From contig CAIJXJ010000261.1 of NCBI GenBank assembly GCA_903824575.1, positions 1 to 64,000 on the forward strand: a stretch of 64,000 nt of DNA, given 5' to 3'. The DNA comes from an uncultured Methylobacillus sp. (GTDB taxonomy: Bacteria > Pseudomonadota > Gammaproteobacteria > Burkholderiales > Methylophilaceae). The notes beneath the pieces were generated by a model. The model had not been told where the DNA came from. It ran no database searches and was given only the letters and a program-made list of their open reading frames with translations. Shown here one piece after another: positions 10,781 through 56,390 of the stretch (position 1 is the stretch's first letter; each line of letters begins with the position of its first letter). Both the position numbers and the translations under genes were made by a program.

Positions 10781-11460
10781 TTTTTCGCCTCTCGCTCGCT
10801 GATGGTAAACGCCACCTTGTTGCGCACATAGAGCGGCGCGGCCAAGCTTGGTGCCAGGCCTTCGCCGTGCGCGAATCCGGGCGCGGCCAGTTCCGCCATA
10901 TATCGTGCCAGCGGATGGGCGCCGGCAATTTTAGTGTTGATTTGAGTGCCATACACGGCATCCAGTGCCGGGCCAAAATTGTCCCAGCCGCTGCCAATGG
11001 CGCACCAGCCGGCGCCTTCCAGTGTCGGTACTTGGGGCGGCGGGTAAAGGCCGGGAGGCAGCACCGTGCGCCAAGCATTGTCCTCTCGTTCATAGGCGGC
11101 GTGGTAGACCTCGTTCATGCGTGCGTCGAGACAGGCGATGACGCGTGCGGCGCCTGCTTGTTGCGCCAATGCTTCCAGGGTGCAGACGCCGATGACCGGC
11201 AGTCCGGCACCGAACGCCAGTCCCTGTGCCACGCCGCAACCGATGCGCAAGCCAGTGAACGAACCCGGCCCCTCGCCAAACACGATGCCGTTGAGGTTCT
11301 TCAGTTGCAGTCCGCACTCGTCCAGCAATTCGCGGATCAGGGGCAGCAGCAGGGTGGAATGTTTCTGTCCTGCCAGTTGTTCGCGGCATGCGATGCTGCC
11401 GTCCTGCCATAGCGCAAGCGAGAGGTATTCGGTGGAGGTGTCGAGTGCGAGTATTTTCAT
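10777..11460 (-). CDS. tsaB: tRNA threonylcarbamoyladenosine biosynthesis protein TsaB
   Basis: A 227-residue ASKHA-fold protein that partners TsaD and TsaE in adding the t6A modification at position 37 of ANN-decoding tRNAs. The N-terminal ILALDTSTEYLSLAL, the GPGSFTGLRIG loop and LDARMNEVY are diagnostic of TsaB rather than TsaD; the metal-binding HxxxH of TsaD is absent. It is the first gene of the tsaB-rimI-udg unit, a frequent arrangement. Confidence 0.94.
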   Translation of the reverse strand: MKILALDTSTEYLSLALWQDGSIACREQLAGQKHSTLLLPLIRELLDECGLQLKNLNGIVFGEGPGSFTGLRIGCGVAQGLAFGAGLPVIGVCTLEALAQQAGAARVIACLDARMNEVYHAAYEREDNAWRTVLPPGLYPPPQVPTLEGAGWCAIGSGWDNFGPALDAVYGTQINTKIAGAHPLARYMAELAAPGFAHGEGLAPSLAAPLYVRNKVAFTISEREAKK

Positions 11461-11498
11461 GAGCCCCTCATTTTGCCACAGGTCAACCTTTGGCCGCC

Positions 11499-11906
11499 TT
11501 ATGACTCATCCACCTTGCCACGCATGGCCTTTACCTTCCCGCGCTGCGTCTTGGTTTCCAGTCGGCGCAGTTTCGAGCCCGGCGTCGGGCGCGTTGCCCT
11601 CCGCACCGGGGGTGGTCGCGCCACGCCGTTCACCAGCGCATGCAGCCTTAGCATCGCGTCCTGTCGGTTCATGTCCTGGCTGCGGTAACGCTGCGCCTTG
11701 ATGATGACGATACCCTCTGTCGTTATCCGATGGTCATGCAGTGCCAGCAACCGTGCCTTTACCCCCTCAGGCAAGGACGATGCCTTGATATCAAAGCGCA
11801 GATGCACTGCGCTGGAGACTTTGTTGACATTCTGCCCACCCGCACCCTGCGCACGCACGGCAGTAAACTCTATTTCATTGTCGGGGATGAGGATGGTTTC
11901 AGGCAT
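11499..11906 (-). CDS. arfB: Alternative ribosome-rescue factor / peptidyl-tRNA hydrolase ArfB
   Basis: A 135-residue release-factor-like protein (formerly YaeJ) that frees ribosomes stalled at mRNA ends without a stop codon. The GGQ catalytic motif is present in AQGAGGQNVNKV (about residues 22-24), followed by the domain-3-like fold. The C-terminal 35 residues are strongly basic (RRATRPTPGSKLRRLETKTQ, then RGKVKAMRGK) and correspond to the tail that enters the empty mRNA channel. It has no codon-recognition domain, which distinguishes it from RF1/RF2. Confidence 0.94.
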   Translation of the reverse strand: MPETILIPDNEIEFTAVRAQGAGGQNVNKVSSAVHLRFDIKASSLPEGVKARLLALHDHRITTEGIVIIKAQRYRSQDMNRQDAMLRLHALVNGVARPPPVRRATRPTPGSKLRRLETKTQRGKVKAMRGKVDES

Positions 11907-42088: not shown

Positions 42089-44602
42089 TTGCAGCAAAAA
42101 TCTCTCCATTCGAACGCCACGGACGATGATGTCCTCGCCTTAAGTCCTGACCTCGAATCAGGCCGAGCATTCAAGATCGCCATCGTCGGGTCCGGCCCTG
42201 GCGGGCTGTCTGCGGCAGCGCACGCGGCGGAGCTCGGCATTTCTTATGTGCTGCTGGAATCCGAAGCGGCACCGGCCAACACCACGCGAAATTTCCAGAA
42301 GGGCAAGCACGTGATGGCCGAGCCTGGTTCTCTGCCGCTAAGGAGTTCACTCCCCTTTGCCACCGGAACCCGCGAAGCCGTCATCGGGGTTTGGGAACAG
42401 GCAATCCAGAGTCGTGGGATCAACCTGCGGCTCAATGCACGGGTGACCTCCATTACGGGCGAACAGGGGAGTTTTGACGTTGGTCTGGAGTCAAACGAGA
42501 CCATACGCGCAGAATTCGTCATTCTGGCGATCGGACTTCAGGGCAATATTCGCAAACTTGAGGTGCCGGGCGCCAATCATCCACGTGTGCAATACCAGTT
42601 GGACGATCCGGAAGAATATCAGGATGAAACCATATTGGTGGTGGGTGGAGGAGATGCCGGCGTGGAGGACGCGCTGGCGCTCAAGGCCAAAAACCACGTC
42701 ATTCTAGTTAATCGTCAGGAAGACTTCATCAATTGCGGTGACGAGAACTTCGAGCGCATCATCGCCTCACTCAAGGCGGCGGAACTTGAGAGTCGTCTCG
42801 ATACCGCGATTACAAGTGTTGAAGTGTCCGATAGCGAAACGGCCATCCTCACGGTCGTCGCCAACACACCGCATGGTATCGAGCGTATCAGTTGCCACCG
42901 AGTCATTGCCCGCTTGGGGGCCGAGCCGCCCAGGCGATTGCTGGACAGCTTCGGCATCCGTTTTCAGAGCGAGGATGCCGCCGCCTTGCCGCTCATGGGG
43001 TTGCATGCCGAATCCTCCGTTCCCGGCATTTACATCATTGGTGCGCTGGGTGGCCATCCGCTCATCAAACAGGCCATCAACCAGGGTTATGATGTCGTCG
43101 AGTGCATCATGGGGCGCGCACTGGAGTCTCTGGATGAAGCCATGCTGCGGCAAAAGCTTGCACTGTGTTATCAGTTCGAAACGGTTAGTGATGGCCTGGC
43201 CGCGTTGCAGCAAGGCATTCCCCATCTGGCCGCACTCAATACGCAACAATTACGTGAGTTCGTTCTGGCCAGTACCTTTCGTGGATACGTGCCGGAACAG
43301 GTCGTGTTTCAGCGCAATGATTACGGCACCGATTTCTACTCTATCGCCAGGGGCGAGATCGATGTCCATGTCGATGAAAAGGGCACCATTGCCGCCACTT
43401 TAAGTTGTGGCCAATTTTTTGGTGAAATGGGGCTGATCTCGGGGCGGCGTCGGTCTGCCACTATTAAGGCGAAATCTGCCTGCACGCTGATTGAAACACC
43501 TCGTCGCACCATGCTCAATCTGCTTGATGCGGTGGAGGAGTTGCGTCGTCTGTTGGATGCTGCCGCACTCAAGCGCGCCATTCATACCTATCTTGGCCTC
43601 TCGCTTGCGCCAGCTGAATTGGACGCGCTGGTAGCTGGTGCCAAGGTTCGTCATTTCGCCGCCGGTGAGGTCTTGTTTAATGAAGGTGACAAGGCCGACG
43701 GGCTGCATCTGATCAGGCGAGGTTCTGTCACGGTGTCGCGCATGATTGCCGGTCGCGATTACACCTTGTCCTATGTTTCCGCCGGCAATTACGTCGGCGA
43801 GATGGCGTTGTTGTCTGGCGGCCCATGCCAGGCAACGGTGCGGGCTGCCGTCAACACCGAGACCATCCTGTTGGAGACAGAGCATGTCGCAGTCAGGGTC
43901 GAGCAAAACTCCGCCTTTCGTAAGCAGCTGGACGCACGCTACCTGGAAAACATGCAGAGCGAGGAAGGCCAGTCCATACCGGCAAATCCAGGGAACTACG
44001 TTTCCAGTCGTGCCACCAATCTGGTTGCCTTTCTTACCCAGCAGGGTCTTGGCGAAGCTACCGATGTATTGTTGATTGATTATTCCAAATGCATCCGTTG
44101 CGACAACTGCGTTACTGCCTGTGCCGATACCCATGGTGGCACCTCACGCTTGGACCGCGAGGCCGGACCGACCTATGCCAATATCCATGTGCCGACTTCA
44201 TGCCGCCATTGCGAACACCCGCACTGCATGAAGGATTGTCCACCGGATGCACTGCGCCGTTCGACCAATGGCGAGGTTTACATTACCGATCAGTGCATAG
44301 GCTGCGGCAACTGCGTTAGCAACTGTCCCTACGGCGTCATCCAGCTTGCAGCGGCCCAGCCCACGATTCGTGACAAGAGCATGCTCGGATTTTTGATCGA
44401 ACTGGCTACCGGGACTCACCCCGTGACGCATACCACAGCAATCAGTGCGCCGCAGCAGGCCGTCAAGTGCGACATGTGCCAGAGTTTTCGGGATGGCCCG
44501 GTCTGCGTCCGTTCCTGTCCCACGGGCGCCGCGTTACGCGTTAACCCGGATGATTTCTTAAGCTTCGCCCATCAATTGGGTGCAGAAGCCATACAACTCT
44601 AA
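42089..44602 (+). CDS. Fused NAD(P)/FAD oxidoreductase - two cyclic-nucleotide-binding domains - 4x[4Fe-4S] ferredoxin
   Basis: An 837-residue soluble multidomain protein. Residues about 28-350 are a thioredoxin-reductase-like FAD/NAD(P) module, with GSGPGG at 34-39 and a second Rossmann motif VVGGGDAGVEDA near 187; it lacks a CxxC redox disulfide. Two cNMP-binding domains follow, with phosphate-cassettes GEMGLISGRRRSAT (Arg455) and GEMALLSGGPCQAT (Cys580 where Arg is usual). From Cys668 onward four cysteine clusters (CIRCDNC, CRHCEHPHC, CIGCGNC, CDMC) fit four [4Fe-4S] centres of the HycB/DMSO-subunit type. No signal peptide. Start TTG 42089 is uncertain. Next to a cytochrome-b-like and a decaheme gene, it probably carries electrons from NAD(P)H toward the membrane under cyclic-nucleotide control (inference). 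Confidence 0.88.
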   Translation: MQQKSLHSNATDDDVLALSPDLESGRAFKIAIVGSGPGGLSAAAHAAELGISYVLLESEAAPANTTRNFQKGKHVMAEPGSLPLRSSLPFATGTREAVIGVWEQAIQSRGINLRLNARVTSITGEQGSFDVGLESNETIRAEFVILAIGLQGNIRKLEVPGANHPRVQYQLDDPEEYQDETILVVGGGDAGVEDALALKAKNHVILVNRQEDFINCGDENFERIIASLKAAELESRLDTAITSVEVSDSETAILTVVANTPHGIERISCHRVIARLGAEPPRRLLDSFGIRFQSEDAAALPLMGLHAESSVPGIYIIGALGGHPLIKQAINQGYDVVECIMGRALESLDEAMLRQKLALCYQFETVSDGLAALQQGIPHLAALNTQQLREFVLASTFRGYVPEQVVFQRNDYGTDFYSIARGEIDVHVDEKGTIAATLSCGQFFGEMGLISGRRRSATIKAKSACTLIETPRRTMLNLLDAVEELRRLLDAAALKRAIHTYLGLSLAPAELDALVAGAKVRHFAAGEVLFNEGDKADGLHLIRRGSVTVSRMIAGRDYTLSYVSAGNYVGEMALLSGGPCQATVRAAVNTETILLETEHVAVRVEQNSAFRKQLDARYLENMQSEEGQSIPANPGNYVSSRATNLVAFLTQQGLGEATDVLLIDYSKCIRCDNCVTACADTHGGTSRLDREAGPTYANIHVPTSCRHCEHPHCMKDCPPDALRRSTNGEVYITDQCIGCGNCVSNCPYGVIQLAAAQPTIRDKSMLGFLIELATGTHPVTHTTAISAPQQAVKCDMCQSFRDGPVCVRSCPTGAALRVNPDDFLSFAHQLGAEAIQL

Positions 44603-44612
44603 ACGGATTCCC

Positions 44613-45539
44613 ATGCAACGCCTGACCCTGTTGGAATACAAGAACTATCGTTATCTGAAACCCGCAGCGGGCTTGGTGGCGCTTGCTGTCCTGGCCTATC
44701 TTTTCCATAGCCCGGTGCTGGGTCCCCGTGGCGATACCTGGCTGGGCTACACGCTGGCCGTCATCGGCGCTGCCGCAGTGTTTATCCTGGCCTGGTATGG
44801 CGTGGTGCGAAGGCGCATTCCGGTACTCGCCGAACGCCGCAAAATGACCCCTTTGACCTTGTTGCAGGAGAAGAATTTTCAGGAACGACGCATGAACCGA
44901 GTGCGCTTTCTCCGTCGCCGTGCCTCAACTCTGCAAGGCTGGCTTTCCGCACACATCTATCTGGGGCTGGCGACCTTTGTCATCGTCACCTTGCATAGCG
45001 GCTTTCATTTTGGCTGGAATATTCACACTCTGACCTATGCCCTGCTGATCGGCGTGATTGTGACCGGGCTCTATGGCGTGTATGCCTATTTGCGCTTTCC
45101 GCGTTTGATGACGGACAACCTAGGAGGGGACAGCATGAGCACCCTGCTGGCTGACATTAGCGAACTGGATCAATTGGCACGCACCAATGCCCTGCGCTTG
45201 CCGGATGAATTTGACGCCATCGTACAGCGTTCCAGTCGCGACACGCGCATTACCGGCGGCTTGCTGGAGCAATTGCGGGGGCGGCCGCGTCTATGTGCTA
45301 CACGGGTCGGTATCGACCAACTGCAACAATTGAATGTCGCCCTGGACCCGGCACAGATTCAGGTATTTCGCGATATTTGCTCGTTGCTGCTGCGCAAGGA
45401 GTCCCAGCTCAAAAGGGTGCGCCTGGAATTGATGTACAAGAGCCGGTTACAGATCTGGCTGCATGTTCATGTGCCTCTTGCTATTGGCCTGATTGCGGCG
45501 TTGTTCGCGCATGTCACCGCCGTTTTCTTTTTCTGGTAA
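44613..45539 (+). CDS. Cytochrome-b-like integral membrane protein
   Basis: A 308-residue protein with about five membrane helices (about 18-37, 43-66, 112-132, 140-160 and 283-308) and a large soluble loop at 165-280. His114 and His128 lie in one helix and His286 and His300 in another; 14-residue spacing in both is the classic pattern for two stacked b hemes. ATG 44613 (with weak ACGGA upstream) is preferred; it starts 10 bp after the upstream gene. It likely moves electrons through the membrane between the iron-sulfur protein and the decaheme. The family was not firmly recognised. Confidence 0.8.
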   Translation: MQRLTLLEYKNYRYLKPAAGLVALAVLAYLFHSPVLGPRGDTWLGYTLAVIGAAAVFILAWYGVVRRRIPVLAERRKMTPLTLLQEKNFQERRMNRVRFLRRRASTLQGWLSAHIYLGLATFVIVTLHSGFHFGWNIHTLTYALLIGVIVTGLYGVYAYLRFPRLMTDNLGGDSMSTLLADISELDQLARTNALRLPDEFDAIVQRSSRDTRITGGLLEQLRGRPRLCATRVGIDQLQQLNVALDPAQIQVFRDICSLLLRKESQLKRVRLELMYKSRLQIWLHVHVPLAIGLIAALFAHVTAVFFFW

Positions 45540-45545
45540 AAATTG

Positions 45546-47138
45546 ATGATACGCTGCCTGCTCATCAAGATCGGACGCAACCAGCGTGGTTTGCCCATCC
45601 GTGCCGAACGCAATGTCGACGGTGATGTCCTGCGCATTGGCCGCTCGGCCGAATGTAACATTCATCTGCCGGATCACCGCGTCAGTTTGCACCACGCGCA
45701 TATACGCCACAGTACGGACGGCAAACTTTACATCGATAGTGCGCATGCGGAACTGAATGTAGACGGTACATTTGTCCAGAGTGCTGAACTGGCTGTCGGC
45801 ATGATGATCCATCTCGGCCCGTATCAATTTGTCGTCGAGGCAATGCCGCAAGCGGATCAGTTGACCTTGTCCTACGAACTTCTGACATCACAGCAGCTTG
45901 ATGTCGTGGCCGACCTGAAGAACTGGCAGCCACCTTCGCTCCACAATCTCTGGTTCAATCAACGCCGTGCGGCATGGCTGCTGGTCGGGCTGATTGTGCT
46001 GGGTTTCATGCTGCTGCCCATGTTGCAAGCCACCAGTCCACAGGTGGGGGCCTGGTTGCAGAAACTGTCGGTCAATCCCCACCAGCTCTGGAGTTCCGGT
46101 GCGCTGTCGAATGCCCACCGAGGATCGAACGCGAGTTGCATGGATTGCCATAACCAGCCGTTTCAGGCGGTCGCCAACGCCGCCTGTCTCAAATGCCATG
46201 CCGATACGGCGGTGCATGGCAAGCACCCGTCGCAGAAGGGAACAAGCAGGACGAATTGCATCGAGTGCCATCGTGAGCATCAGGGCGGGCGCGCCATGCC
46301 GAATCGCAGCGAAGGTGAGTGCGTTCGATGCCACGCCGACATTAAGCGCTTCGAACCAGTATCAAGGCTGCCTAACATCCGCGATTTTGGCCATGATCAT
46401 CCCGAGTTCCAACTTAGCATCCGGACCGGCCCCAATAAAGGCGATCTGCGCCTCTTCTTGCCGAGTGAAGCCCAGCCTCCCAGGCAGGATCCCGGCCTGA
46501 AGTTTTCGCACGCCACGCATATTGGCAAGGTGTCGATCCCGTGGGATCAGATGACGGTCAGGGAACTCAAGTGTGCCAGTTGCCACCAGCCGGACCAGGT
46601 GGGCCTCGGTACGAGGCCGGTGAATTTCAGGCAACATTGCTTTTACTGTCATCAGGACAAGCTTGAGTTCGATCCGGTGGTGGCCGGGCGTAAATTGCCG
46701 CATGGGTCTGTTGCTGAGCTGAGCGACACCCTGCGGGATTATTATGCCGGTCTTGCCTTCGGTAGCCGCCAGACGCCGCAGTGGGTCAGCGCCAGCTTGG
46801 AGCATGCGGCCAAGACCTTGACCGATGAGGAAGATGGCTGTGCTTATTGCCATACCATTCGCGCCAATGCCGACCCGCGAAAACTGTTCGAGGTGGCTAC
46901 TGTCCTACAGAACCAGCATTGGTTCCCGGCAGCCAGATTCCCGCATAACCGGCACGTCACCTCGAAATGCGTGGATTGCCACAAGATTACCGAGTCCAAG
47001 GACAGCGCTGAGATTTTCATCCCCGACCTGGCCACCTGTCGCAAATGCCATGCCGGCATGAATCCGGTGGCGAATAAGGTCAGCAGCCCTTGCATGAGCT
47101 GCCACGATTACCACTTTGCGACCGCAAAGGAACTCTGA
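45546..47138 (+). CDS. FHA domain - transmembrane - decaheme c-type cytochrome
   Basis: A 530-residue protein. Residues about 25-98 form a forkhead-associated domain (IGRS at 31-34, SLHH at 47-50), the fold that reads phosphothreonine. One helix (about 142-162, RRAAWLLVGLIVLGFMLLPML) crosses the membrane, so FHA is cytosolic and the rest periplasmic. Ten CxxCH heme motifs follow from Cys198 to near 518 (CMDCH, CLKCH, CIECH, CVRCH, CASCH, CFYCH, CAYCH, CVDCH, CRKCH, CMSCH). It probably accepts electrons from the cytochrome b and passes them to a periplasmic or outer partner, with a cytosolic phospho-signal input (inference). ATG 45546 lies 6 bp after the previous stop. Confidence 0.9.
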   Translation: MIRCLLIKIGRNQRGLPIRAERNVDGDVLRIGRSAECNIHLPDHRVSLHHAHIRHSTDGKLYIDSAHAELNVDGTFVQSAELAVGMMIHLGPYQFVVEAMPQADQLTLSYELLTSQQLDVVADLKNWQPPSLHNLWFNQRRAAWLLVGLIVLGFMLLPMLQATSPQVGAWLQKLSVNPHQLWSSGALSNAHRGSNASCMDCHNQPFQAVANAACLKCHADTAVHGKHPSQKGTSRTNCIECHREHQGGRAMPNRSEGECVRCHADIKRFEPVSRLPNIRDFGHDHPEFQLSIRTGPNKGDLRLFLPSEAQPPRQDPGLKFSHATHIGKVSIPWDQMTVRELKCASCHQPDQVGLGTRPVNFRQHCFYCHQDKLEFDPVVAGRKLPHGSVAELSDTLRDYYAGLAFGSRQTPQWVSASLEHAAKTLTDEEDGCAYCHTIRANADPRKLFEVATVLQNQHWFPAARFPHNRHVTSKCVDCHKITESKDSAEIFIPDLATCRKCHAGMNPVANKVSSPCMSCHDYHFATAKEL

Positions 47139-47404: not shown

Positions 47405-48424
47405 CTATCGCAGTACACCCGGAGGCGACGTGTAGCTGTCCAGAACATTGATGTAATTGACCCGTTCATAAGCCGCCGGGTCGATGGCATGACGGCCGCT
47501 GACACTGCCCTTCATCTGGCGTACCGACTGATAATCATGCTGCTCCAGCCAATCATTGAGTCCTGCCAGAACTGTGCCCAAGTGACCGGGTCCAAGGAGC
47601 AGTAGCGCGCTGCACAGATGAGTCACGTCCGCCCCAGCCAGGAGCGCACGGATGACATCCTGTGCTGTGTGAAAGCCACCCGTCACTGCCAGCGAGAGTT
47701 TTACCCTGCCATGTAGCAAGGCTACCCAACGGATGCGGAGGCTTGCCTCCGTCGAGGTCGATAGCTCCAGTTTTGGCATAACCTGCAAGGTCTCGAGATC
47801 GATGTCGGGTTGGTAGAATCGGTTGAATAGCGCGAGTCCATCGGCGCCTGCCGCCTCCAGTTGTCGTGCCAGATGGAGTGGTGCGCTAAACTGTGACGAT
47901 AGCTTCATGGTGACTGGCAGGCTGACATTGCGCTTGAGTGCTTCGAGCAACTCGACGTAACGCCGCTCGACCTCAGCACCACTTTCATCGATGTTTGCCG
48001 CCACGTGATAGACATTGAGTTCCAGGGCGTCGGCGCCGGCACGCTGCAACTCTGTGCCGTGTTCTATCCAGCCCTCCAGTGAGGTGCCGTTGAGGCTGGC
48101 GATTACCGGGATATCGAGGGCCGATTTCAGCCTTTGTAATTGGTCCAGGTAAGTGTCCACATAACCGGTAAATTCCTGGGGGACGGGGTGAAAGGAGGTC
48201 GCCTCGGCATGGCCGATGGCCTGCTGCTGGAAGAAGCGTGCCGCGTGTTGTTGTTCGTTACGGACTTTTTCCTCGAACAGCGAATACATGACGAGGGCGG
48301 CGGCTCCTGCATCCTCCAGTCGTTTTGCCATGTCGAGATCGCGCGACAGGGGGGATGCCGAGGGGACCAGAGGGTTGGCGAGCTTGAGGCCCAGATATTC
48401 CGTCGACAGATCAATCATGGTCAA
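47405..48424 (-). CDS. Dihydroorotate-dehydrogenase-like flavoprotein next to nifJ
   Basis: A 339-residue TIM-barrel protein of the PyrD superfamily, not the biosynthetic enzyme (pyrD is at 26699). It has MIDLSTEYLGLKLANPLVPS, IASLNGTSLEGW, LELNVYHVA and LAVTGGFHTAQDVIRALLAGAD, which fits an FMN barrel. Such genes are commonly paired with nifJ; the reaction is not established. The ATG overlaps the nifJ stop by 4 bp. Confidence 0.82.
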   Translation of the reverse strand: MTMIDLSTEYLGLKLANPLVPSASPLSRDLDMAKRLEDAGAAALVMYSLFEEKVRNEQQHAARFFQQQAIGHAEATSFHPVPQEFTGYVDTYLDQLQRLKSALDIPVIASLNGTSLEGWIEHGTELQRAGADALELNVYHVAANIDESGAEVERRYVELLEALKRNVSLPVTMKLSSQFSAPLHLARQLEAAGADGLALFNRFYQPDIDLETLQVMPKLELSTSTEASLRIRWVALLHGRVKLSLAVTGGFHTAQDVIRALLAGADVTHLCSALLLLGPGHLGTVLAGLNDWLEQHDYQSVRQMKGSVSGRHAIDPAAYERVNYINVLDSYTSPPGVLR

Positions 48425-51400
48425 TCCTTCTCGATGCCGGCTTTGATCTGGGCCTTCACCGCAGATACGCTGATGGCGTCATTCCAGTTGAGTTCGGACA
48501 ACTGCTTGTAATATTGGTAGCGCTGGTGCACATCCTGCTGCGCCTGTTGCAGGAAGCGTTCGGCAGCCTCCGGGTGGGTTTGCCACAGCATGGAAAAGCG
48601 GGTTTCGGACTGGACAAATTCGCGGTAAGGGAGGGAGGGTTCCGCCGAATCCAGGTGCAGTGGGTTCTGCCCCTGCGCGATGCGCTTGGGATCAAAGCGG
48701 AACAGTGGCCAGTGGCCGCACTTGACCGCCAGGTTTTGCTGGCGGTGGTTGTTGGACAGATCCACGCCATGCGCGATGCAGGGGGAGTAGGCGATGATGA
48801 TGGACGGGCCCTCATGCGCTTCGGCCTCCAGAAAAGCACGCAAGGTCTGCACGTCTTTTGCGCCATAGGCGACATGCGCCACGTAAACATTCTCATAGTC
48901 CATGGCCAGCATCGCCAGATCCTTCTTGGCGTTGGGTTTGCCACCGGAGGAAAATTTGGCCACGGCACCGCGCGGGGTGGCCTTGGAGGTCTGGCCGCCG
49001 GTATTCGAATAGACCTCGGTGTCGAGCACCAGAATATTGACGTTGCGGCCACTTGCCAGCACATGGTCGAGACCACCATAGCCGATGTCGTAGGCCCAGC
49101 CGTCGCCGCCTATGATCCACACGCTCTTGCGGCACAGGTTCGCGGCCAGGTCCAGCAGTGTGGTCGCGCGCGGATCGTCCAGTTGTTGCAGCGCCTCGCA
49201 CAAGGCAAGCACGCGCTGCCGTTGCTCATGAATGCCGGCCTCAGTCGATTGATCGGCCTGCAATAGCGATTCCGCGAGTCCTGCCGGCAACCGGTCTGCC
49301 AACAGCGATAACAGTTCAGTCGCGAACATTGACTGTTGGTCGATTGACACCCGCATGCCGAGACCGAATTCCGCGTTATCTTCGAACAGGGAATTGTTCC
49401 ATGCAGGTCCCCGTCCTTCCGCGTTCATACTCCAGGGCGTGGTGGGCAGATTGCCGCCGTAGATGGAGGAGCAGCCGGTAGCGTTGGCCACTACCATGCG
49501 GTCGCCAAACAACTGGCTGGCCAACTTGAGGTAGGGCGTCTCGCCGCAGCCGACACATGCGGCGGAAAACTCGAACAGCGGTTGCAGTACCATTGCTCCC
49601 TTGATGGTGGTCAGGTTGAGGGTGCTGCGGTCATATTCCGGCAGGGTTAGGAAGTAGTCCCAGTTGTTCCTTTCCTGCACCCGCAGCGGCGCTTGTGGCG
49701 CCATGTTCAGTGCCTTGCGGCTGGCATTCGACTTGTCGCGGATCGGGCAGATATCGACGCACAGTCCGCAACCGGTGCAGTCCTCAGGCGCGACCTGATA
49801 GCTCATCTGCAGGCCTGCCGGGAATTCCTTGCCTAGCATCGGCATGTGCTTGAAGCTGTCGGGCGCAGTGTCGAGCGTTGCGGCCGGGAATATCTTGCTG
49901 CGGATTGCCGCGTGCGGGCAGACCATAGGGCATTTGCCACACTGCGTGCACAGGTCGGTCTCCCATACCGGGATCTGCAGTGCGAGATTGCGTTTCTCGA
50001 GGGCTGCCGTGCCTAGCGGGAAGGTGCCATCCGCAGGCATCAGGCTGACCGGCAGGGCGTCGCCGCGCCCTGCAATGATACCCATCGTGACTTGTTTGAT
50101 GAAGCTGGTTGCTGGCAACATTGGCTCAACCGGAGCTTGGCTGGTGCCGACCGGGCCAATGGCTACGCGATGCAGATTGGCCAGGGTTTCATCGATCGCC
50201 CTGAAGTTGAGTTCAACCAGACGCCGTCCTTTCTTGCCATAGGTCTTCTCTGCCGCGTTCTTGATCGCTGCGATGGCCTGGGCCTGGGGAAGAATATCGG
50301 AAATGGCAAAGAAACAGGCCTGCATGATGGTGTTGATGCGTTTGCCCATGCCGGCGATTTCGGCTACGGCATAGGCATCGATGGCATAGAAGGTGATTCC
50401 CTGGTCGATGATCCTCTGCTGCATGTTGATGGGCAAGGAGTTCCACACCTGCTCCGGTGCCAGTTGCGAGTTGAGCAGGAACACGGATTTCTTTGCCGCT
50501 TTGTCCAGCAGGGGGAAGCGTTCGAGGAAAACGCTCTGGTGGCAGGCGATGAAATTAGCGTCATTGTCGCCGATCAGATAGGTCGAACGTATCGGATCGG
50601 GACCGAAGCGCAGATGTGAAATGGTCACCGCACCCGCTTTTCTGGAATCGTAGACAAAATAGCCCTGAGCGTGCCAGTCGGTGGTCTCCCCGATGATCTT
50701 GATGCTGTTCTTGTTGGCGCTCACCGTGCCATCGCTGCCCAGGCCATAGAACATGGCCTGGAATGTATTGGCATGCGCATCGGTGCGGTAATCCGCATCC
50801 CAGTCGAGACTCAAGTGCGTCACATCGTCCTGGATGCCGATGGTAAAGTCGTTTTTCGGCTGCTGTTGGCTGAGTTCGTCGAACACGCGCTTGACCATGC
50901 CAGGCGTGAACTCCTTGGAAGCCAGCCCATAGCGGCCACCAATAATTCTTGGCAGGGTAGAGAATTTGCCTCTGCCAGTGCTGTAGTCTTGTGCCACGGC
51001 TGTCAGCACATCCTTGTACAGGGGTTCGCCATCCGATCCCGGTTCCTTGGTGCGGTCCAGTACCGCGATGGACTGGCAACTCGCGGGCAGGGCGGCGATC
51101 AAGGCATTGGCATCGAACGGCCGGTACAGGCGCACCTTGACGAGGCCCACTGTTTCGCCTTGACGCACCAGAAAATCGACGGTTTCGATCGCCGTTTCGG
51201 CGCCAGAGCCCATCAGCAGAAGGATGCGCGTCGCCTGCGGGTGGCCGGCATACTCAAACAGGTGATAGTGACGCCCTGTCAGTTTGCCCAGCCTGTCCAT
51301 GGTGTGCTGCACGATGCCGGGGAAGCGCTGGTAATACGCATTGACCGATTCCCTCGCCTGAAAATAGACGTCCGGGTTCTGTGAACTGCCGCGTAACACC

Positions 51401-52032
51401 GGGTGCTCGGGGGACAGTGAGCGAGCACGGTGCGCGGAGATCCAGTCTGGCTGGATCATCGCGCTCAGGATGTCGTCATCGATAGAGTCGAGTTTTGCCA
51501 CTTCGTGTGAGGTGCGGAAGCCGTCGAAAAAGTGCAGTATTGGAATGCGTCCCTCAAGGCTTGCCACGTGGGCGATCAGGGCGAAGTCCATGGCCTGTTG
51601 CGGCGAATTGGAGCACAGCATGCCGAAGCCGGTCTGGCGTGCGCTCATGACGTCGCTGTGGTCGCCAAAGATGGATAACGCCTGGCAGGCCAGCGCACGC
51701 GCGGCAATATGGAACACGGCCGGTGTCAACTCGCCGGCGATCTTGTACATATTGGGCAACATCAGGAGCAGGCCTTGCGATGCGGTGAAGGTGGTGGCAA
51801 GCGACCCTGCCTGCAGCGCGCCGTGGATTGCGCCGGCGACCCCGCCCTCGCTCTGCATCTCGACCACGTGCGGAACCGTGCCCCACAGGTTGGTCTGGCC
51901 ATGGGACGACCATTCATCGGCCCATTCGCCCATGGTAGACGAAGGTGTGATGGGGAAAATGAATAGCACTTCACTGAGCTTGTGCGCAATCATGGCAACG
52001 GCTTGATTGCCATCGATGGTCAGTTTGTCCAT
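48421..52032 (-). CDS. nifJ: Pyruvate:ferredoxin (flavodoxin) oxidoreductase
   Basis: A 1203-residue single-chain PFOR converting pyruvate and CoA to acetyl-CoA and CO2 with reduction of ferredoxin. Domain I has FPITPSSTMGEWADEW, the [4Fe-4S] pair is CTQCGKCPMVCP and CTGCGLCVDICP, and the thiamine-diphosphate domain has GGDGWAYDIGYGG and VYSNTGGQTSKATP. Length agrees with the homodimeric enzyme. It is oxygen-sensitive in most bacteria. It is coupled to the dihydroorotate-dehydrogenase-like gene and converges on the electron-conduit genes. Confidence 0.97.
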   Translation of the reverse strand: MDKLTIDGNQAVAMIAHKLSEVLFIFPITPSSTMGEWADEWSSHGQTNLWGTVPHVVEMQSEGGVAGAIHGALQAGSLATTFTASQGLLLMLPNMYKIAGELTPAVFHIAARALACQALSIFGDHSDVMSARQTGFGMLCSNSPQQAMDFALIAHVASLEGRIPILHFFDGFRTSHEVAKLDSIDDDILSAMIQPDWISAHRARSLSPEHPVLRGSSQNPDVYFQARESVNAYYQRFPGIVQHTMDRLGKLTGRHYHLFEYAGHPQATRILLLMGSGAETAIETVDFLVRQGETVGLVKVRLYRPFDANALIAALPASCQSIAVLDRTKEPGSDGEPLYKDVLTAVAQDYSTGRGKFSTLPRIIGGRYGLASKEFTPGMVKRVFDELSQQQPKNDFTIGIQDDVTHLSLDWDADYRTDAHANTFQAMFYGLGSDGTVSANKNSIKIIGETTDWHAQGYFVYDSRKAGAVTISHLRFGPDPIRSTYLIGDNDANFIACHQSVFLERFPLLDKAAKKSVFLLNSQLAPEQVWNSLPINMQQRIIDQGITFYAIDAYAVAEIAGMGKRINTIMQACFFAISDILPQAQAIAAIKNAAEKTYGKKGRRLVELNFRAIDETLANLHRVAIGPVGTSQAPVEPMLPATSFIKQVTMGIIAGRGDALPVSLMPADGTFPLGTAALEKRNLALQIPVWETDLCTQCGKCPMVCPHAAIRSKIFPAATLDTAPDSFKHMPMLGKEFPAGLQMSYQVAPEDCTGCGLCVDICPIRDKSNASRKALNMAPQAPLRVQERNNWDYFLTLPEYDRSTLNLTTIKGAMVLQPLFEFSAACVGCGETPYLKLASQLFGDRMVVANATGCSSIYGGNLPTTPWSMNAEGRGPAWNNSLFEDNAEFGLGMRVSIDQQSMFATELLSLLADRLPAGLAESLLQADQSTEAGIHEQRQRVLALCEALQQLDDPRATTLLDLAANLCRKSVWIIGGDGWAYDIGYGGLDHVLASGRNVNILVLDTEVYSNTGGQTSKATPRGAVAKFSSGGKPNAKKDLAMLAMDYENVYVAHVAYGAKDVQTLRAFLEAEAHEGPSIIIAYSPCIAHGVDLSNNHRQQNLAVKCGHWPLFRFDPKRIAQGQNPLHLDSAEPSLPYREFVQSETRFSMLWQTHPEAAERFLQQAQQDVHQRYQYYKQLSELNWNDAISVSAVKAQIKAGIEKD

Positions 52033-54075: not shown

Positions 54076-55499
<1,424 letters not shown>

Positions 55500-55503
<4 letters not shown>

Positions 55504-56390
55504 TGCCTCACTCCTGTCAGCAGGGTCCAATTCTCCATGAATATCGGCGCCTGCATGTCGAACCAGTTGTTGTAACAAGCGCTTACATCGGCAGCTTGTT
55601 CGGCTAGCACGCCAGACAGCGCGATGCGTCCACCCGGGCGGCAATGGCTGGCCAGGGCTGGTGCCAGCAGTTTGAGCGGGCTGGAGAGAATGTTGGCGAC
55701 CAGGATATCGGCCGCAAACGGCGGCATGTCATCGGGTAGCACGAAGTTTACGTCGCCAGCCTGATTGTTTTCCGCGTTATAGCGACTGGCAAGCATGGCC
55801 TGCGGGTCGATGTCGACCCCCATCACGGTGCCGGCTCCCAGTCGTTTTGCGGCAATTGCCAGGATGCCCGAGCCGCAACCATAATCGAGCACACTCTCTC
55901 CCGGATGAAGATGGTCGCATAGCCAAGCCAGGCATAGATGCGTGGTGGGGTGGCTACCGGTGCCAAAAGCGAGGCCGGGGTCGAGTACGATGTTCAGCGC
56001 GTTCGGGTTGGGGGCGACATGCCATGATGGAACAATCCACAAATCGTCCCGGATGCAAATGGGTTCGAATTGGGACTGGGTTGCGCGCACCCAATCCTGC
56101 TCCGCGATGGTTTCTACGGTGTAGGACAGGTGATCAAGTCCGGTGGCGGCAGCCAGCGCCAGCATGACGGCAGGAATATCCATTTCATCATTGAACAAGG
56201 CACTGACAACATTGTGTTGCCACATGCCGGGTGGCGGCTCGCCCGGTTCACCGAAGATCGGCTGTTCGTCCAGGGTCTCGGCATCGGCATCCTCGATGCT
56301 TGCCGACAGGGCCCCCAGATCCATGAGTGCATCGCTCAAAACTTCGGCGGTATCTTCTCCCGCCTGGATCTTAAGCGATTGCCAACCCAT
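55500..56390 (-). CDS. prmA: Ribosomal protein L11 methyltransferase
   Basis: A 296-residue SAM methyltransferase that trimethylates lysines of ribosomal protein L11. The SAM motif is VLDYGCGSGILAIAAKRLGA (about residues 165-184), followed by VMGVDIDPQAM and ILVANILSSPLKLL, with the N-terminal L11-recognition domain before it. It overlaps the accC stop by 1 bp and the DUF3426 start by 4 bp. Confidence 0.95.

Follow-up and report, generated by a model that had tools for sequence, protein, structure and literature searches.

A conserved three-gene module with cyclic-nucleotide-binding domains and its probable role as an electron conduit across the inner membrane

The window analysed here, a 64,000-nucleotide stretch of contig CAIJXJ010000261.1 from an uncultured Methylobacillus sp. 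(assembly GCA_903824575.1), carries three same-strand genes, called P1, P2 and P3 below, which encode in turn a flavin, cyclic-nucleotide-binding (cNMP) and iron–sulfur (Fe–S) protein, a membrane protein, and an FHA protein with ten CXXCH heme motifs. The gaps are 10 bp between P1 and P2 and 6 bp between P2 and P3. A preliminary description had read this triad as a single electron conduit, with a second-messenger input on the donor side and a phosphothreonine input through the FHA domain on the acceptor side. Its account of the co-directional set, the two short gaps, the domain make-up of the three proteins and the P2 histidines (His114/128 and His286/300) was borne out by the open reading frames, Pfam matches and motifs, as listed here.

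42089–44602, plus strand: P1, with an FAD/NAD(P) oxidoreductase domain (residues ~28–340), two cNMP domains (~390–490 and ~510–610) and four [4Fe–4S] sites (~660–820); from Pfam/NCBIfam, PDB sequence matches and conservation in 60 sequences
43415–43465, plus strand: phosphate-binding cassette of P1 cNMP domain 1 (residues 443–459), Glu446 and Arg455 intact; from the 60-sequence conservation
43790–43840, plus strand: phosphate-binding cassette of P1 cNMP domain 2 (residues 568–584), Glu571 intact, Arg replaced by Cys580; from the 60-sequence conservation
44613–45539, plus strand: P2, membrane protein with five predicted transmembrane (TM) helices and two WX3HX13H motifs; from conservation, AlphaFold2 and charge distribution
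44820–44915, plus strand: extra charged stretch of ~31 residues in the P2 TM2–TM3 loop (about residues 70–101), not present in any of the other 9 rows of alignment A1
45546–47138, plus strand: P3, with an FHA domain (~30–91, predicted cytoplasmic), one TM segment (~142–160) and a decaheme c domain (198–523); from Pfam, the CXXCH count, and TM and charge analysis

Components of the triad

P1 comprises 837 amino acids (aa) from a TTG start at 42089, which is the sole in-frame ATG, GTG or TTG before the FAD motif and has no evident ribosome-binding site by eye. Pfam placed cNMP_binding on two stretches of the protein (123 bits, cut-off 27.5), and P1 also matched the Pyr_redox_3/2 and Fer4 families as well as PF13247 (E 6.8e-9, 36.3 bits, cut-off 26.2). 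The PDB sequence matches were YpdA/Bdr, thioredoxin reductase and ferredoxin-NADP reductase for the flavin domain, PKA/PKG regulatory units for the cNMP domains, and HycB3 and NrfC-type subunits for the Fe–S part. No CxxC pair occurs among the cysteines of the FAD/NAD(P) domain. The 16 cluster cysteines lie at 668–678, 705–717, 736–746 and 794–810, and all of them, together with the tested FAD glycines, were invariant in the 60 sequences longer than 700 aa that were kept from a set of 66.

In known cNMP proteins, a Glu/Arg pair of the phosphate-binding cassette contacts the sugar-phosphate. The Glu was invariant (60/60) in both P1 cNMP domains, and the Arg was found in 60/60 sequences in domain 1 and in 58/60 in domain 2, the exceptions being the window P1 (Cys580) and one protein with His. 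Since the pair is thus kept, the P1 family is likely to bind a cyclic nucleotide, while the window P1 would probably do so by domain 1 only. The second-messenger input on P1 that was proposed earlier is plausible. Two class III cyclase matches were found in the source genome. A link to anti-phage defence was set aside, as PADLOC models matched P1 solely through its cNMP domains.

P2 (308 aa) was assigned to no family of Pfam or NCBIfam at E<=0.001. Its two motifs, W110/H114/H128 and W282/H286/H300, are nearly free of variation: H114 and H128 were kept in 81/81 sequences, H286 and H300 in all 80 sequences with letters there, and the motif Trp in 80/81 and 80/80 for the first and second motif, respectively. 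At the SGXXG site the window protein reads TGLYG; the first position was Ser in 74, Thr in 4 and Asn in 3 of the 81 sequences, and both Gly were present in 81/81. Five hydrophobic helices were assigned from an AlphaFold2 model and charge analysis, rather than from a dedicated TM predictor. The model, built on a 77-row alignment, reached a pLDDT of 89.8 and a pTM of 0.81; an earlier run with 10 rows (pLDDT 66.3) was set aside. The mean number of Lys plus Arg was 2.7 at the N-terminus, 6.5 in the TM2–TM3 loop and 18.8 in a helical insert between TM4 and TM5 (residues 159–279, with a mean Asp plus Glu of 15.2), while the two remaining loops averaged 0.33 and 0.06. This distribution predicts a cytoplasmic location for the N-terminus, the TM2–TM3 loop and the insert, with H114 and H286 near the cytoplasm and H128 and H300 near the periplasm. 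The pairs H114–H286 and H128–H300 may hold two b hemes.

P3 (530 aa) matches the Pfam FHA family (37 bits, cut-off 20.7), has one hydrophobic segment from residue 142 and contains 10 CXXCH motifs; the Pfam family for the cytoplasmic domain of T3SS YscD also matches the FHA part, under that family's cut-off. Among 73 P3 sequences, Lys/Arg was higher before the TM segment than after it in 62, with 8 ties and 3 opposite cases. This excess suggests that the FHA domain, N-terminal to the TM segment, is probably cytoplasmic, on the same side as P1.

This placement, together with the residues of the FHA domain, bears on the phosphothreonine input, which is not supported as it was described. Some features fit a conduit gated by an FHA-bound phosphoprotein as well as by a cyclic nucleotide: the window FHA retains Gly-Arg, Ser47 and His50, and the Ser/Thr kinase search called for in the preliminary description returned three Pkinase matches above cut-off in the source genome. 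In the 71 P3 sequences of 451–639 aa (kept from 78), the residues by which FHA domains read phosphothreonine are mostly lost. Gly-Arg was present in 71/71, but the Ser of SxxH in 16/71 and the Asn in 29/71; the residue directly after the Ser position was Leu, Met or Phe in 71/71 and Arg or Lys in 0/71, and Arg occupied the second position in 3/71. The window P3 itself has Leu48 and His49 after Ser47, and His67 at the Asn position. In contrast, a second FHA protein encoded in the source genome (L172) retains GR, SxxH and TNG. We thus rejected the P3 FHA as a phosphothreonine reader; a phosphoprotein gate is unlikely, and the doubly gated conduit is highly improbable. Since the reading residues are lost in most relatives, the most likely role of the FHA is in docking to P1/P2 or in their assembly.

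Linkage and distribution

We surveyed 398 Pseudomonadota genomes, evenly drawn from the phylum and including the source genome. P1 (E<=1e-100) and P2 (E<=1e-60) were found in an identical set of 15 genomes, the P1 tally being a lower bound because two candidates per genome were scored, and the P2 cut-off having been chosen after a gap was seen between E 1.4e-64 and the next value, 2.1e-11. In all 15 genomes, P1 and P2 are adjacent and on the same strand, and in two of them (G094 and G212) they occupy one open frame. Lowering the P2 threshold to E<=0.001 gave 36/398 genomes, and the other 21 hold distant relatives; at the loci of 15 of these 21 (L123–L137), 6 to 13 CXXCH motifs were present in one open frame of the stretch taken in 15/15. 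Among 187 genomes of the family, again with the source genome, P1 occurred in 49, P2 in 47 and both in 47, on the same contig in 46/47, and the two P1-only genomes (G589 and G591) gave partial P1 matches. P2 was present in 10/61 relatives of the source genome.

A P2 scan of named genomes returned at least 582 related stretches, the best 80 of which were kept as named loci. These span Methylotenera, Gallionella, Ferrigenium, Sideroxydans, Sulfuritalea, Magnetococcales, Rhodospirillales, Ferrovibrio and others, and Methylotenera mobilis 13, M. oryzisoli La3113 and Oceanibacterium hippocampi CECT 7691 are triad carriers that are not records of metagenome-assembled genomes. Within the 80 loci, P1 lies upstream of P2 in 65, P3 downstream in 77, and both in 62, so that the gene order, for which a genome-wide search had been suggested, indeed recurs across Pseudomonadota and goes beyond a chance arrangement. 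With script-picked starts, the gap was below 50 bp in 58/65 cases for P1–P2 and 68/77 for P2–P3; three of the P1 gaps (L063, L082 and L096) are start-picking artefacts.

In two Magnetococcales loci, P1 and P2 are fused as one open reading frame (L064, 1123 aa; L082, 1118 aa), the P2 N-terminus being attached to the Fe–S end of P1. At L082, two small minus-strand open reading frames that look toxin-antitoxin-like by eye (10986–11584) lie between the fused P1–P2 and P3.

Where P2 lacks an adjacent P1, a P1 was sought in the whole genome. The 16 genomes searched comprised those of 13 of the 15 P1-less named loci (L084 and L091 were left aside) plus G058, G037 and G039. A P1 match lay elsewhere (E<=1e-20) in 14 of the 16, and 12 of these matches cover at least 700 of 813 positions. 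L071 and L074 sit too close to contig edges for adjacency to be judged.

Related systems and extended clusters

The P2 architecture resembles a class that is already on record. According to He et al. (2017, PMC5566968), the inner-membrane proteins of the PCC3 and PCC4 pathways have five TM helices, with one WX3HX13H motif on each of TM3 and TM5 and SGXXG on TM4, and two b hemes and a role with quinone were proposed, not demonstrated, for them. In the same paper, PCC4 subgroup II has a pfam13247 Fe–S gene upstream of the membrane protein, and the PCC4 cluster includes a porin and three periplasmic cytochromes with 4, 5 and 10 hemes; an Fe–S gene and a membrane protein annotated jointly in Oceanospirillum beijerinckii could, per He et al., be split, and membrane proteins of similar kind were also reported next to further multiheme genes, in most cases along with a further redox protein (PMC5566968). 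The triad resembles PCC4 subgroup II in its Fe–S gene upstream of a five-TM, two-motif protein and in its decaheme. It differs in that P1 carries a fused FAD/NAD(P) domain and P3 an FHA domain, and in having no porin, tetraheme or pentaheme gene adjacent. With the PCC3 inner-membrane protein P2 shares the two WX3HX13H motifs, and it resembles that protein at the SGXXG site, where the window P2 has Thr for Ser. PCC3 combines a porin with very large, many-heme periplasmic and extracellular cytochromes (PMC5566968, PMC10734462), none of which lies at the window locus. The terms "cyclic nucleotide", "cNMP", "FHA" and "forkhead" are all absent from the main text of PMC5566968.

P3 has a probable counterpart as well. 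Table 1 of a Gallionellaceae pangenome (PMC10734462, 2023) lists cluster 403, a "Forkhead-associated protein" with 10 motifs in 27/87 iron-oxidiser genomes; the FHA name and the 10 heme motifs are the common features from which we infer identity, and the table gives it as a bare row, with no linkage to P1/P2 and no function. The membrane-protein class and probably the FHA cytochrome have thus been recorded by He et al. and in this pangenome, and the triad extends an already described class of membrane-protein wires. For the triad itself, including its nucleotide-sensing part, no description was found among the papers listed in searches of the PMC library. A Magnetospirillum cNMP-domain gene with iron-dependent transcripts (PMC5459824) was considered, and no tie to the triad was shown in the text consulted. 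New here are the conserved P1–P2–P3 module, the presence of cNMP domains within a core of PCC4-like type, and the six-gene version described below, which includes a probable barrel of the outer membrane.

One locus, L174, carries homologues of P1, P2 and P3 in the same order: a cNMP–Fe–S protein with 16 cluster Cys (27%, E 6e-39), a membrane protein with both motifs (23%, E 8e-7) and a 10-CXXCH protein (23%, E 2e-9), accompanied by a separate NAD-binding/2Fe–2S gene and a 4-CXXCH gene. Its cNMP part consists of three Pfam stretches, one with a canonical cassette by pattern. By gene content we read this locus as PCC4-like, with a candidate porin of 481 aa at the contig edge that has no Pfam match, and with no pentaheme seen.

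A longer arrangement was found in 29 of the 80 named loci (for example L092, L097, L065 and L085), where genes for an HbpS-like protein and a probable outer-membrane barrel of ~620 aa come after P3 in an unchanging order; a 10-CXXCH protein of ~870 aa comes next in 27 of the 29, giving the six-gene version. The HbpS-like assignment has a Pfam match in 4/4 examples scanned, and one of three barrel candidates scanned narrowly passes the Alginate_exp cut-off. This version may possibly form a conduit from the cytoplasm to the cell exterior; a literature search of the PMC library found no account of it. The barrel is absent from the source genome and present in 2/61 relatives. The different neighbours in L174 and in the six-gene loci suggest related inner-membrane cores beside differing envelope parts.

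More distant P2 relatives stand in other contexts. In the source genome (L138, G000 contig 135, 6416–9202 and 9443 onward), one such relative (E 6e-13) lies directly upstream of 27- and 28-CXXCH genes, with no P1-type gene beside it and no porin within the stretch examined; these PCC3-like genes adjoin cytochrome c maturation genes by eye. At L129, L130, L134 and L135, short membrane proteins (192–197 aa in L129, L134 and L135) lie between an NAD-binding/2Fe–2S reductase gene and an 8–12 CXXCH gene.

In a rival reading, P2 works with quinones. The triad would then be a quinone oxidoreductase linked to NAD(P)H or to a cytochrome, which in iron oxidisers would feed periplasmic electrons to the quinone pool. 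He et al. liken the HX13H motifs to the ferric reductase domain and to the cytochrome b of bc1 and hydrogenase (PMC5566968), and 12/80 loci have P2–P3 without P1, beside outer-membrane-type genes. On the other hand, at most of the loci examined P2 has a fused or neighbouring P1, which provides it with a soluble partner, and we consider the quinone-linked role doubtful.

Ferric reductase domain/NOX proteins carry electrons from NAD(P)H and flavin to two b hemes. P2 is like them in having HX13H on two helices, the comparison made by He et al. (PMC5566968), and differs in that its neighbour is a multiheme cytochrome. P2 had no Pfam match to the ferric reductase domain (PF01794) at E<=1, and no such row appeared in the fold search.

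Proposed electron path

We propose that the triad is one trans-inner-membrane electron conduit running from P1 through P2 to P3, probably gated by a cyclic nucleotide and with outward flow favoured; this complete reading is, in our judgement, the probable one. Its core, that the three proteins form one redox unit across the inner membrane, is well supported by the co-occurrence and adjacency of P1 and P2, the two Magnetococcales fusions, the invariant Fe–S cysteines and heme histidines and the predicted topology, and in this respect the single conduit of the preliminary description stands. In the proposed path, cytoplasmic P1 would exchange electrons with NAD(P)H via FAD and relay them along its four [4Fe–4S] clusters, and the two cNMP domains, lying between the flavin and Fe–S domains, would probably gate the step from flavin to Fe–S. 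P2 would then carry the electrons over two b hemes, held by H114–H286 on the cytoplasm side and H128–H300 on the periplasm side, and hand them to the periplasmic decaheme part of P3, whose FHA domain may dock P1/P2 on the cytoplasmic side.

Electrons passing from NAD(P)H to hemes in the periplasm move downhill, aided by the inside-negative potential, while the reverse would need a very low-potential donor. Flow direction is not readable from sequence, but these energetics favour a regulated electron outlet, with net flow outward from NAD(P)H to the periplasmic c hemes, which we hold with moderate confidence.

Several observations weigh against this reading. P2 stands without a neighbouring P1 at 15 of the 80 named loci; in the whole-genome searches, G039 and G461 gave no P1 match, G451 and G456 gave partial ones, and three P1 matches contain one in-frame stop. 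On contig 17 of G061 (L175, 4485–7215), a second P1 is followed by an 80 aa open reading frame like the start of P2, by eye an apparent remnant. P3 lacks the FHA domain in L027 and L028, one of them from genome G037, which has a P1 match, and the other from G039, which has none. The window P1 is without the pocket Arg in cNMP domain 2. Finally, fold comparison of the P2 model yielded no solved diheme cytochrome b: Foldseek returned 203 matches at E<=10 and none at E<=0.001, and in the VIA comparison with 837 chains the best Z was 10.9, for the sensor domain of TorS, a value in the range of unrelated helical models.

The signalling-type domains, cNMP on P1 and FHA on P3, would also suit a redox sensor, in which the decaheme reads the periplasmic redox state, electrons reach the Fe–S clusters and flavin of P1, and the cNMP and FHA domains relay a signal at small flux. 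Such a sensor is improbable, in view of the ~17 cofactor sites (FAD, four Fe–S, two b and ten c hemes) conserved as a chain, the lack of any kinase or DNA-binding output domain found by Pfam in P1, P2 or P3, and the six-gene versions that extend to a probable outer-membrane barrel.

For the inner-membrane step of PCC3/PCC4-type pathways, He et al. could do no more than propose a role for the membrane protein (PMC5566968). With P1, the triad offers a membrane protein of this class a concrete soluble partner, and it predicts NAD(P)H as electron donor or acceptor and a cyclic nucleotide acting on the electron path itself. A conduit is likely and a cyclic-nucleotide gate plausible; if a nucleotide were shown to gate electron flow across the membrane directly, this would be surprising. 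More tentatively, and with less than even confidence, one may regard the triad, the PCC4-like and the six-gene clusters together as a widespread bacterial class of "electron valves", in which binding of cAMP or cGMP would directly open or close electron flow between NAD(P)H and multiheme cytochromes across the inner membrane.

The source genome of the window amounts to 3.66 Mb in 315 contigs. Promoter and terminator scans gave no excess over shuffled sequence (4 found against 3.8 expected, and 5 against 5.1, respectively). No porin, tetraheme or pentaheme gene lies beside the window triad, and the P3 decaheme is the sole cytochrome among the surrounding open reading frames listed. The upstream flank consists of chaperone genes, named by eye. 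Downstream, genes for a DHOD-like protein and a full-length pyruvate:ferredoxin/flavodoxin oxidoreductase occupy 47405–52032 on the minus strand, convergent with the triad; as partners of the triad both were ruled out, with 0 tblastn matches for either in the 80 loci. Farther along the minus strand, an open reading frame at 54076–55644 has, by eye, a long Glu-Pro repeat region, preceded by a zinc-ribbon-like part at the N-terminus and followed by a TM part at the C-terminus.

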